NCBI GenBank assembly: GCA_963681505.1
Contig: OY811993.1
Coordinates: 3,223,387-3,287,386 of the forward strand
Direction: 5' to 3'
DNA length: 64,000 bases
Origin: Eunapius fragilis
Lineage: Eukaryota > Porifera > Demospongiae > Spongillida > Spongillidae
The position numbers and the translations under genes are program-made. Within the stretch, counting starts at the first letter, position 1; each line of letters opens with the position of its first letter. The notes beneath the pieces were generated by a model. That model made no database searches. It saw only the letters and a program-made list of their open reading frames with translations, and was not told where the DNA came from. Shown here one piece after another: positions 31,318-39,070 of the stretch.

Positions 31318-31790
31318 TGGAGCGAAGTGACCCGACTCTTGGCAGTCGATCGCTCGACGCGAGTGACGTTTTTAATGACATTTCATGATACTGTTGGATT
31401 CTTACATGGAACCTACTCCCGTAGGTTCGGAAGTCTATCCCATGAGGATACAATATTTCAGTACAAAAAGGCCTTGTATGAGCTAGGAACACTGTCCGCT
31501 GTACGTCCCTCAGTTAAAATTGAGTACATTTTTATGTTTTGGACTTAAATTTTCTTACGATAACGAAGTCCCTAGCATGGTTCGTTCAATACGGACGTAC
31601 TAAGGATGATTTCATGATGCACGTAACCGTCCACTACATTTCTATTTACTGCATAGTGCATGCTTGCAGACATCAATTGTTAAATCCATTAGCTTCACTG
31701 ATCCCGGTTGTCATCTGGAGATATGCCAGCTTGAAATACAGGAAGGGAACTGTTTCAAGCACTATTCATATGTATTATCTCCAGGGTATT

Positions 31791-31970
31791 TCTCTCTCTC
31801 TCTCTCTCTCTCTCTCTCTCTCTCTCTCTCTCTCTCTCTCTCTCTCTCTCTCTCTCTCTCTCTCTCTCTCTCTCTCTCTCTCTCTCTCTCTCTCTCTCTC
31901 TCTCTCTCTCTCTCTCTCTCTCTCTCTCTCTCTCTCTCTCTCTCTCTCTCTCTCTCTCTCTCTCTCTCTC
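31791..31970. repeat. (TC)n microsatellite, 180 bp
   Basis: Pure TC dinucleotides just downstream of the left-arm LamG pseudogene. The right arm has the inverse (GA)n of about 90 bp at the same place (38474-38563). Confidence 0.97.
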
Positions 31971-32001
31971 TTGTATCAGCTTTCAATGCTCATGGCATGG
32001 A

Positions 32002-32633
32002 TTAATTAATATTTGTAATGGTAGTCTTACCATTTTTAGCAATTGCTGGAAGGATCTTGTAATCTAGGTTATAAACCTCAGCAATTGCAGCCGGGTTCCA
32101 AGGACTACCGGCATAGGCAATGAGATCTCCTGCGAAGCGACGGGTAGGTTGCTTGCCAAAATGATACCGGCGAGAGAGTGAGTGCAACAGCATGATGTGT
32201 GCATGTGTGTGTGGGAGTGTGTACATGAGTGCACATACATCACACGCACTTGCTCACTCACTCGCTCGCTCACCCACCCACCCACCCACCCACCCACCCA
32301 CGCACCCGCCCGCCCGCCCGCTCACTCGCTCACTTTTACATCCTTGAATGCATTGAAGCGTCGTTGATAAACTGCATGGAGAAATGGAAAGTTTCTATAT
32401 TACTCAGCGGGATAACTATATGTACCCTGCACACGAACAATGGTACCAACTAACCACTTTGATTCGCACGTTTCGCTATCGAGTTTCATATTAACAAATT
32501 TTTGCTTGGTTGGATAGACATCATAGTTGCTTTTTACCACCGTCTCCAGCCCGTTCGCGGTCTCACAGATCGTGGACAGCATGAAGTACAAGGCGAAGGT
32601 CCAGTACAGCGAAGCGTACTTCTTCATTTCCAT
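32002..32633 (-). pseudogene. Left-arm copy of the LamG-like secreted gene, internally deleted
   Basis: Exon 1 (32633-32404) encodes the same signal peptide and 76-residue N-terminal part as the right copy, with only a few substitutions (for example PAE for PDE at the end). It keeps the GA/GTAATA donor. The second exon has lost its hinge and most of the LamG-like module. Sequence corresponding to about 37855-38296 is missing, and the intron runs straight into a stub starting at GKQPTRRFAGDLIAYAGSPW near 32160 and ending KILPAIAKNGKTTITNIN at 32002. The deletion ends share a few bases (TGGC/TGCC), as in microhomology repair. It may still be transcribed but cannot make the full domain. Confidence 0.6.
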
Positions 32634-32718
32634 GCTAGATACACGTTTCGAATATGGCAACTGCATGTGCTTGCCTCAACTAGGTCGGTGCATTCTTTTT
32701 ATGTGAGCGATTTATACC

Positions 32719-35418: not shown

Positions 35419-35484
35419 TTGGGCGTAACCCAATCTTATAGCGTCTGCGTCTTACTCAGACGCTAAGATCGGGCTACGCCTCAC
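35419..35484. repeat. Short foldback GGGCGTAAC...GGGCTACGCC
   Basis: TTGGGCGTAACCCAATCTTA on one side pairs with GATCGGGCTACGCC on the other, enclosing AGCGTCTG...CAGACGCT. A related short palindrome occurs in AGXT intron 2 at 63091-63130 (shared ACGCTAAGRTCGGGCYACGCC). Confidence 0.65.
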
Positions 35485-35544
35485 TACGATACAGCATCGA
35501 AGAAGTATATATTGCAGTAGTGAAGGTAACATGGCCCGCGCACT

Positions 35545-38500
35545 TGTGCGCGGGCCATTTTACCATCCTTACCATCATTATACTGATTCTTCCTCGATGC
35601 TGTATCCTAGTTAATTTTTAAATCTGTGCAGTATATAGCCAATTGGCAAGGAGGTAATAATTATTTAGAACTTCATTTTTTCACTCGATTCGATACCGCG
35701 TTTATTTTGGTCACTGCTTGTAAAAAGTGTAATACAATTACAATGTACATGAACCCCCATTTTCCCCAAAGCAAAAATGTTGGCTACGGCCCTAATTATC
35801 TCCCGCCTTCGCTTATGGAGTAGCTCACTGAGTACCACACCTAGTCTCGTACCCAGACCACACTCGCAGCTGCTGATGGATTACATCACCGCTACGCGAC
35901 TGCGTAACAAAATTGCCCGGGCGGATTTTAACCGTACAATCAGAATGCAGGTGCTCCATGACGTTACATTCCAATTGGTAATAGCATTGCATTATGTATT
36001 GATCAGTTGATGGCTGTGTCAAACCTGGAGCTCGACAATGCGATAATTCAGGCGTCTCGACAGCGCTAGCTGGGCTATGCGACGATTCGTCCAGACCAGA
36101 ACAGATCTATCCAAAGCTCCATGGAAGTCGTTATGCTTCTCTGTGCTACCCTATGCGTTCGATTATCTCAGTCTAAGAACGCGTTGAATTGGTAGTATCG
36201 TGGTGGTCGTTTCACCCTTGATTGCATTAATGTAAGTATTAGGCTATTCCATTTAATGCGCAGACGGAGGCAGGATGAGGTCCTTTCTAATGCTCTCCAA
36301 TTTTCCTTGCAGTGCCAAGTACTTCTTGATCGAGTCAAAGCACCTTGTACACAAATAGCATGATTCGTACTCTCTCCCAGATTCCTTTTTAAAAGTTGTC
36401 TCGATCGCTAAACTCATTAAAACCGCTCTGCTATCCTATTCCTGCTTTTTAAACGGGAGCATCGCACAACTTGCATCTATTCATTTGTGGCTACAAACTT
36501 ATTGACCTATGACACCGTTAATGAGTGTTGCCGCGACACTTACACCCAATGACGTCACTACAGTTACGAACGTGCCTAGTTTCCCCAGACCACTTCTCGC
36601 GTAGCGGTGATGTAATCCATACGCAGCAGCGAGTGTGGTCTGGGTACGAGACTATACCACACCGCGGAAACAGGCCTAGACATCAATTAATAAGAAACAC
36701 GCACAGAGCCAAGTATAACTGCGTGTGTGTTTGCATGTGTGTATGTGATTGTGTGCATGTACTTGTGTGCGCGTGTGTCGTGTGTGCGTGTGTGTGTGTG
36801 CGTGTGTGTGTGTGTGTGTGTGTGTGTGTGTGCGCTTGTGTGTGTGCATGTGTGTGTGTGTGTGTGAGTGCAAATTGTCTGCATGCAATAAGGAATGATA
36901 TATGCATTGACTGAATCGGGAACAAATATTTTCATACAGGAGGCATATTGATGTGAGGAGGTCGAGATCCGCGAATTGGGATGACATGCAATCGTTTTAA
37001 CCCTCCAAGTCACACCTTTCGCGCATGCACACTGAATACTGAGTTGTGTTGCTCATTTGTTTACTTACATTTACTTTAAAAAAATAATATATACACTTGC
37101 AACGCTCAATGGTTACGCCTCAGACTTCATTGTGAAATTCCCTGAACCCCGAATCCATTCGCTTCTCCGACAATCTGGATCTAAGAAGTCCCTGTGCAAT
37201 GTGGGTTTACTAAGAAACTTTTCTTGCAAGTTAAAAACTCATGTTTGCGGCATGCAATTCCTGGACAGCTGCAAGTTTAAAACCTTTCAAGGTAATCGCT
37301 CACATAAAAAGAATGCATGCACCGACCTAGTTGAGGCAAGCACATGCAGTTGCCATATTCGAGACGTGTATCTAGCATGGAAATGAAGAAGTACGCTTCG
37401 CTGTACTGGACCTTCGCCTTGTACTTCGTGCTGTCCACGATCTGTGAGACCGCGAACGGGCTGGAGACGGTGGTAAAAAGCAATTATGATGTCTATCCAA
37501 CCAAGCAAAAATTTGTTAATATGAAACTCGATAGCGAAACGTGCGAATCAAAGTGGTTAGTTGGTACCATTGTTCGTGTGCAGGGTACATATAGTTATCC
37601 CGACGAGTAATATATAAACTTTCCATTTCTCCATGCAGTTTATCAACGACGCTTCAATGCATTCAAGGGTGTAAAAGTGAGCGAGTGAGCGGGCGGGCGG
37701 GCGGGTGCGTGGGTGAGTGGGTGGGTGGGTGAGTGAGCGAGCGAGCGAGTGCGTGTGATGTGCCTGTGTATGTATGTGCACTCATGTACACACTCCCACA
37801 CACACATGCACACATCATGCTGTTGCACTCTCTCTCTCTCGCCGGTATCATTATGGCGGCCATATAAGGTAACTGCAATCCTCCTGCTACTAGGCCACCT
37901 ACCCAGCCTCCTACCCAGCCTCCTACCCAGCCCCCATCTATTCTCCTTATTCCTAACCTTAATGTGATCAAAAACAATAAAATTGGTACTCTCCCCGGAA
38001 CAACCGGAAACTACAAACTTTCATTTGAAATTGTACCCCGTGGTGTCACTGATGACTATGGGAATATTCTGCATTTCACCAGTGGTGATGACTGTTGTGC
38101 TTTTGGAACTCGCTCTCCTTTAATATCTTTTTTGAAGGGTACTACTCGATTGCATTACAGAATGGGAGATTCTACTGCGCCAAATTGGGGCTTTGATACA
38201 GACGAAGGTATTCCTCTTAATATCCGTACCAAGATTACACTTGAGTGCAACGGATCTGATGTGAAACTTACTGTGGGAACGAACGTATATACTGCCAAGC
38301 AACCTACCCGTCGCTTTGCAGGAGATCTCATTGCCTATGCCGGTAGTCCTTGGAGCCCGGCTGCAAATGCTGAGATTTATAACCTAGATTACAAGATCCT
38401 TCCAGCAATTGCTAGAAATGGTAAGACTGCTACAAATATTAAGTAATCCATGAGCATTGAAAGCTAGTACAAGAGAGAGAGAGAGAGAGAGAGAGAGAGA

Positions 38501-39070
38501 GAGAGAGAGAGAGAGAGAGAGAGAGAGAGAGAGAGAGAGAGAGAGAGAGAGAGAGAGAGAGAGAATGAAAATCCCTAGAGATTATATACATGTAAATAGT
38601 GCTTGAAACAGTCGTAAACATTATTTTGCATTTCCCTTCCTGTATTTCAAGCTGGCATATCTCCAGACGACGACCGGGATGAAGCTAATGGATTTAACAA
38701 TTGATATCTGCAAGCATGCACCATACAGTAAATAGAAATGTAGTGGACGTTAATTACTTTTAGACTGTGTATAGTGTTACGTGCATCATGAAATCATCCT
38801 TAGTACGACCGCTTTGAACGAACCATGCTAGGAACTTCGTTATCGTAAGAAAATTTTAATCCAAAACGCGGTCCAAAACATAAAGGGACGTAGCGGACAG
38901 TGTTGCAAGCTCATACATGGCCTTTTTATAAATATTGTATCATCATTGGACAGACTTCCGAACCTACGGGAGTAGGTTCCATGTACATGTAGGAATCTAA
39001 CATATCAATAATGTCATTACGAACGTCACTCGCGTCGAGCGGGACGGCCAAGAGTCGGGTCACTGCGCTC
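35545..39070 (+). repeat. Right arm of a large inverted duplication
   Basis: About 3.5 kb, the more complete copy. It holds the intact LamG-like gene, its 1.8 kb upstream region, a (GT)n tract at 36720-36870, a (GA)n tract at 38474-38563 and the outer 500 bp matching 31318-31770. The homology to the left arm ends at GGTCACTGCGCTC near 39070. Confidence 0.85.
37377..38446 (+). CDS. Secreted protein with a laminin-G/concanavalin-like domain (intact right-arm copy)
   Basis: Predicted two-exon gene: 37377-37606 and 37894-38446, 260 aa. Exon 1 begins MEMKKYASLYWTFALYFVLS, a typical signal peptide, and ends SYPDE. An in-frame ATG 33 bp upstream (37344) is possible, but it would put 11 residues before the signal core. 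The donor GA/GTAATA (phase 2) and acceptor CTACTAG/G join to give PDE followed by a (PPTQ)3 hinge. A roughly 150-residue beta-rich module follows, containing NYKLSFEIVPRG, LHFTSGD, LTVGTNVY, FAGDLIAYAGSPW and NAEIYNLDYKI. The last block resembles the end of LamG/ConA-like lectin folds ('lyaGDPWy.pA.a.IrNl.y'). Exon 1 is nearly identical to the inverted left copy, so it has been conserved or recently copied. Ligand and role are unknown; family assignment is by pattern only. Confidence 0.6.

Follow-up and report, generated by a model that had tools for sequence, protein, structure and literature searches.

Inverted copies separated by a short unduplicated spacer, with repeats or inserted sequence at some junctions, have been described among human fold-back inverted duplications, whose spacers range from 766 to 70,466 bp with a median of 3,428 bp (Hermetz et al., 2014, PMC3907307, in the sections cited here). 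Short-range template-switch mutations, as treated by the four-point model in the cited portion of PMC7954356, create new inverted repeats by copying in reverse complement, with hairpin-prone sequence nearby. In the genome of Ephydatia muelleri, gene clusters with tandem and segmental copies are reported, same-strand and reverse-strand matches occur in one family, and slippage and unequal crossing-over are suggested for the tandem clusters (PMC7385117, in the parts cited). Here we describe a locus of the sponge Eunapius fragilis at which a segment carrying a small gene for a predicted secreted protein is present as two inverted copies, hereafter the left and right arm, on either side of a 2-kb spacer. 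It lies in a 64-kb stretch of DNA, the window (contig C23:3223387-3287386; genome of 218,937,333 bases in 24 contigs), and all positions below are those of the window unless a contig is named.

The locus resembles the human fold-back cases in its inverted copies, its short unduplicated spacer and the repeats or inserted sequence at some of its junctions, and its spacer falls within the human range, which supports a fold-back reading, while it differs from the cited human cases in being interstitial, kilobase-sized and fixed in a reference assembly, with no terminal deletion known for it (PMC3907307). With the short-range events it shares hairpin-prone sequence nearby and a new inverted repeat, here a palindrome in the left arm, although the main event in the sponge, at ~2 kb, is larger than those described in the cited portion (PMC7954356). 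Clustered and segmental gene copies are common to the sponge locus and to Ephydatia muelleri as reported in the cited parts, whereas the Eunapius locus stands apart through inverted copying with junction signatures (PMC7385117). We regard a local, single-locus inverted segmental duplication, made by template-switching replication or repair synthesis, as the probable origin of the locus. The event is well resolved but ordinary in kind, with one dead copy of a gene that belongs to a large secreted-protein family of this genome.

Two unequal arms at a single locus

Self-comparison of the window with blastn, together with genome searches and paralog alignment, gives the following features.

31318..33552, minus strand: left arm (2,235 bp), an inverted, partial copy of the right arm (blastn blocks)
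33553..35559, unstranded: spacer between the arms, 2,007 bp (genome searches with 33216-33900 and 35007-35850)
33805..~35066, plus strand: 5'-truncated fragment of a long interspersed nuclear element (LINE), with an open reading frame (ORF) at 33885-35006 of 373 aa; 17 genomic loci align to all or part of it
35560..39070, plus strand: right arm (3,511 bp), the probable donor (same alignments; its outer repeat fragment extends past 39070, the left counterpart stops at 31318)
37377..37555, plus strand: predicted exon 1 of the right-hand gene, with a signal-peptide-like start and the splice donor GTTAGT (paralog alignment, frame)
37894..38446, plus strand: predicted exon 2, a Pro/Thr/Gln linker and a conserved domain of ~150 aa, stop at 38446 (frame-consistent GT-AG intron)
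32455..32633, minus strand: exon 1 of the left copy, with 2 changes relative to the right (sequence comparison)
31972..32154, minus strand: 3' end of exon 2 of the left copy, with a deletion of ~435 bp at about 32155-32165 (alignment)

The arms are real: they pair as inverted blocks (31320-32158/39070-38293, 32155-32795/37857-37221, 33017-33218/36870-36682 and 33272-33552/35841-35560), and the blocks, of 84 to 871 aligned bp, have E-values from 0 to 1.3e-24, far beyond chance. Each arm holds one gene copy, oriented outward, so that the arms of 2.2 and 3.5 kb, the ~2-kb spacer with its retroelement ORF and the outward-pointing gene pair described in an earlier sequence-only reading are all borne out. 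Just outside the arms no significant continuation of the likeness was found (p 0.081 at the outer and 0.224 at the inner ends, 2000 shuffles each).

That reading had wavered between a palindromic local duplication and a large composite transposon carrying the host gene as cargo, between which a genome-wide search with arm and gene would decide. The stretches searched as DNA were 37312-37755, 38570-39070, 33216-33900, 35007-35850, 35850-36668, 36866-37230 and 54082-54933, while 37756-38569 was searched as protein only and the left arm as DNA by its inner end only; the search passes over simple repeats and highly frequent words, and only its best candidates are scored. The exon 1 block has two full copies in the genome, both at the locus, the other 43 of its 45 matches being pieces of 53-109 bp that mostly correspond to the signal-peptide exon in paralogs or to simple sequence at one end of the query. 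The outer 500 bp likewise has two copies, both at the locus (the other 38 of 40 matches cover its terminal ~115 bp, a dispersed element), as does the inner block, for which the remaining matches besides the LINE are pieces of 30-129 bp, including a 77-bp piece from its arm part at 78% identity on contig C5. Apart from a third, partial copy at 53499-55600, the searched stretches of the arms thus recur elsewhere in the 219-Mb genome only as short pieces, and no target-site duplication (TSD) was found flanking 31318-39070, the best shared k-mer being 4 bp, a length reached or exceeded in 244 of 300 random pairs. Because no other full arm copies exist for the stretches searched and no TSD marks the ends, the locus is taken as a single-locus event and a local duplication. 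A composite transposon would account for the inverted arms, the dispersed repeat at both outer ends and the retroelement sequence in the middle, but, within the stretches searched, it was rejected on these two grounds, the arms are moreover unequal and decayed, and the spacer ORF has no transposase recognised by Pfam; we hold this explanation to be highly improbable.

In genome searches with 33216-33900 and 35007-35850, the spacer is single-copy apart from the LINE; what recurs elsewhere is the LINE part, together with short pieces. The 17 loci that align to the LINE fragment (two pairs overlap and some are short fragments) do so at 80-96% DNA identity, some extending upstream into sequence that by eye resembles reverse transcriptase, but no single open frame spans the whole 373-aa stretch in any of them. 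The ORF contains, by eye, CCHC and PD-(D/E)xK-like motifs, which we take to be those of LINEs of the restriction-like endonuclease (RLE) type; no Pfam family scores above its cut-off. The fragment lies 252 bp and ~493 bp from the two inner junctions, and the LINE was dropped as a seed of the duplication, since no LINE sequence is present at any junction. The suggestion that the mobile element had seeded the duplication therefore finds no support for the retroelement, and it is a different repeat, a fragment resembling a miniature inverted-repeat transposable element (MITE), that sits at the outer arm ends.

The left gene copy still has exon 1 and the final third of the domain (query positions 108-159 of 160) but lacks ~435 bp, including the splice acceptor and most of the domain; judged from these letters, it appears to be a pseudogene. 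The deletion, put earlier at 440 bp, measures about 435-440 bp. Exon 1 had been called almost unchanged, which is correct for its predicted coding part (2 changes in 179 bp, one V-to-M and one silent), but the adjoining intron is also little changed. Over exon 1 and this intron block, 7 of 351 sites differ (2.0%) against 46 of 817 (5.6%) in seven other blocks (Fisher p 0.005), in a test of eight non-microsatellite blocks picked after the data had been seen, with the exon 1 coding part as a subset; gap-rich blocks inflate the 5.6%, the outermost block alone contributing 13 of 102. The synonymous and non-synonymous comparison gives no verdict on selection, and as only two coding changes are available and the neighbouring intron is also little changed, selection on exon 1 was dropped as an explanation; conversion or constraint may lie behind the lower divergence in this region.

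Junctions, probable donor arm and proposed order of events

The features that bear on how the copy was made are these.

35483..35611, unstranded: at the right arm's inner edge, an imperfect palindrome (129 bp, 76%)
35531..35558, unstranded: GC-rich hairpin with a perfect 12-bp stem and a 4-nt loop, its foot next to 35560, where the homology of the arms stops
31293..31321, plus strand: outer left junction, where 29 bp duplicate sequence from 31510-31543 (alignment and 17-mer count)
32720..32872, unstranded: near-perfect left-arm palindrome (153 bp, 97%), of which the right arm carries a single half
38957..39100, plus strand: part of a dispersed MITE-like element, lying at the right arm's outer end (genome search; left counterpart ends at 31318)
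35842..36654, unstranded: 813-bp terminal inverted repeat (TIR) transposon (TAGTCTCG...CGAGACTA) with the 9-bp TSD TACCACACC, in the right arm; empty site in the left arm
53499..55600, minus strand: third, partial copy, corresponding to 35802-37073 and carrying the 813-bp transposon at the site that it occupies in the right arm; 16 kb away and split by an 852-bp element at 54082-54933

The inner edge of the arm homology, at 35560, lies within 2 bp of the stem foot; among 31,982 overlapping windows of 36 nt, the best one at this spot takes rank 5. With low-complexity sequence excluded, perfect 12-bp stems with loops of 3-10 nt occur at five places in the 64 kb, one of which is the left-arm palindrome. 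As the halves of the 129-bp palindrome are 24% diverged, against 2.0% and 5.6% between the arms, this palindrome should predate the arms. Directly beside it lies a second small palindrome (35416-35486, 71 bp, 77%), perhaps another MITE. At the outer left junction, the 29-bp duplicate aligns over 29 bases with one mismatch and a 5-bp gap (score 23, against a best of 16 in 3000 shuffles), and the 17-mer common to 31293-31321 and 31510-31543 occurs exactly twice in the 219 Mb, at these two places. The duplicate is thus a templated insertion at a junction, a trait of template switching and of microhomology-mediated break-induced replication (MMBIR).

The MITE-like fragment is present at the outer ends of both arms (38957-39070 and its left counterpart) and belongs to a family with 735 first-look genome candidates, of which 40 were scored. 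The 40 bp beyond 39070 continue to match the family (score 15, reached by 0 of 2000 shuffles), whereas the 40 bp beyond 31318 show no MITE match (p 0.735), so that the left arm is cut inside the element. The 129-bp palindrome is whole in the right arm, while the left arm has only its arm-side half. Since both the overhang of the MITE-like element and the whole inner-edge palindrome are on the right and the left gene is broken, the right arm is the probable donor or template.

The 813-bp element has long TIRs and a 9-bp TSD, as expected of a Mutator-like non-autonomous element, a TSD of 9 bp being a Mutator trait; a genome search for its family gives 509 first-look candidates, of which 40 were scored. 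The left arm holds a single uninterrupted copy of its target site. The sequence-only reading had let the left arm lose inner blocks; the largest of these is instead the 813-bp insertion in the right arm, although a ~130-bp block (around 36871-37005) was likely lost from the left, because it is present in the right arm and the third copy. A further block of ~91 bp (near 37104-37194) is present in the right arm only among the three copies, and its direction of change is not polarisable. As the element sits in the right arm and the third copy and its site is empty on the left, the left arm would have been copied before the element entered the right arm, and the third copy made thereafter; precise excision of the element from the left arm is a possible alternative to this order. 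Right arm and third copy differ at 4.1-5.6% of ungapped sites, about the same as arm from arm. The 852-bp element that splits the third copy has a 4-bp TSD, GCTC, at its mapped ends, with other 4-bp matches nearby; among 40 scored of its 248 first-look candidates, many are 94-97% identical to the copy at 54082-54933, and it is perhaps a recently active non-autonomous DNA transposon.

Proposed template switching and competing explanations

In the sequence of events that we propose, a segment of the right arm with the small secreted-protein gene would have been copied in inverted orientation to a place ~2 kb away, where it became the left arm. At its inner end the copying would have halted at the foot of a strong hairpin that seems to be older, the outer left junction would have been sealed by 29 bp copied a second time from a point ~220 bp within the arm, and a further fold-back may have given rise to the 153-bp left-arm palindrome. 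The ~435-bp deletion would later have killed the left gene copy, a transposon would have entered the right arm, and a part of that arm including the transposon would then have been re-copied 16 kb downstream. A template-switch mechanism of this kind is likely, because of the rare hairpin at the inner edge, the 29-bp duplicate, the left-arm palindrome and the third copy.

Several observations weigh against it. A series of events separated in time, rather than a single complex one, could have left the same pattern, and the divergences between right and left arm and between right arm and third copy are too alike to order the events alone. The human fold-back cases in the cited sections have terminal deletions, while the sponge locus is interstitial (PMC3907307). 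The other three arm ends have no exceptional hairpin (the best windows within 60 bp rank 492, 12,526 and 1,439 of 31,982), nor is there a strong hairpin at the four ends of a 2-kb inverted repeat in an array of the same gene family on chromosome 7 (ranks 947-2,258 of 12,983). Contrary to the short inverted homology that fold-back predicts, the two spacer ends show none above chance (p 0.224), although divergence could have hidden one of 2-8 bp. Finally, the hairpin and junction tests were picked after the sequence had been seen. This last point, and the chromosome 7 repeat with its unremarkable ends, would also suit an ordinary end-joining duplication, in which hairpin, palindrome and junction features are coincidences of later, independent decay and all were noticed after the fact; such a history appears unlikely, given that the 17-mer of the junction duplicate occurs nowhere else in the genome and that a hairpin of great rarity lies no more than 2 bp from the inner edge.

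That the arms end inside a common dispersed repeat could suggest that two MITE copies in inverted orientation took part in ectopic recombination or repair, but this repeat is present at the outer end only, the sequence to the left of 31318 is not MITE and the inner end has no shared repeat, which makes this course of events rather improbable. An assembly artefact, such as a head-to-head join of two haplotypes or of a chimeric molecule from amplification, is conceivable for an assembly made from ultra-low input (ULI) HiFi libraries with Hicanu and heavy haplotig removal, as stated in the cited part of PMC12616128. It was dropped on the divergence of the arms (2.0-5.6% substitutions with many indels, the transposon and the 435-bp deletion), on the flanks just outside the arms, which are unlike, and on the third copy 16 kb away; the window also holds no ambiguous base, and we give an artefact hardly any credence.

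The gene family and the meaning of the locus

The right-hand gene is open, exons 1 and 2 encoding a predicted protein of 243 aa with a hydrophobic start, a linker and the domain, and its donor GTTAGT is also found in two aligned paralogs (L016 and L019). A protein search with the domain gives 68 matches in the genome, fragments and the studied locus included, with clusters on contigs C7 and C12 and others elsewhere; the nearest relative is 68% identical. Thirty of the 68 gave loci, and alignment A1 combines 18 of these 30 with the window protein, omitting L009 (the window itself), L014, L017, L026 and L031-L038; in A1 and in the AlphaFold2 run the window protein starts 8 residues upstream of predicted exon 2. 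The domain had been labelled LamG-like, a name that we find to be an unsupported guess. Among the 19 family members, Pfam gives no Laminin G or concanavalin-like profile match above its curated cut-off and a weak Laminin_G_3 match in one member only (E 0.0092), and a PDB profile search returns four weak rows, none of them a LamG domain. NCBIfam, a prokaryote-oriented library, has no match to the domain, and 162 pattern matches in bacterial and archaeal genomes include no confirmed relative. The AlphaFold2 single-sequence model of exon 2, made without relatives, has a predicted local distance difference test (pLDDT) score of 37.6, too low for use, so that a jelly-roll fold, and with it the LamG label, is neither supported nor excluded by it. 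No description of the domain family was found in the freshwater-sponge literature searched, which is no proof that none is in print.

Other features of the window include a minisatellite-like stretch of ~2.6 kb at 23558-26173, in which several reading frames are open simultaneously over as many as 871 codons, and a perfect 59-bp tandem duplication at 40960-41077. Inverted repeats or palindromes are found at 28851-29191, 15092-15358, 58877-59101 and 41986-42220/42726-42504 (225-341 bp, 77-94% identity), in a list that omits matches below 120 bp and those starting at 22-27 kb. Judged by eye, long ORFs at 6457-14212 (minus strand) resemble parts of a very large conserved gene, and those at 51619-52557 (plus strand) resemble parts of a seven-helix receptor.

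The array of the same family on chromosome 7 (G000:C7:2893000-2919000, L079-L081) contains both direct and inverted repeats, each at 92-98% identity, among them 2911592-2913635 against 2917091-2915048, inverted at 97.9% identity around a 1.4-kb spacer. Inverted duplication hence recurs in the gene family of this domain. A wider possibility, which we advance tentatively and consider doubtful, is that the right arm is a repeat template hotspot acting through hairpin-provoked switching, with the 2.2-kb inverted copy, the 153-bp palindrome, the 29-bp junction insert and the 1.3-kb copy 16 kb away as its products, and that inverted copying is a standing route of multiplication for the family in freshwater sponges.

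The locus offers a clear example of the birth and decay of a kilobase-sized inverted gene duplication in an early-branching animal, in which the donor is probably distinguishable from the copy, one junction lies at a hairpin and another carries a templated insert, and a transposon helps to order two copyings. If junctions of this kind turned out to be common around the family, the high gene counts of freshwater sponges would have to be traced to template switching as well as to unequal crossing-over.

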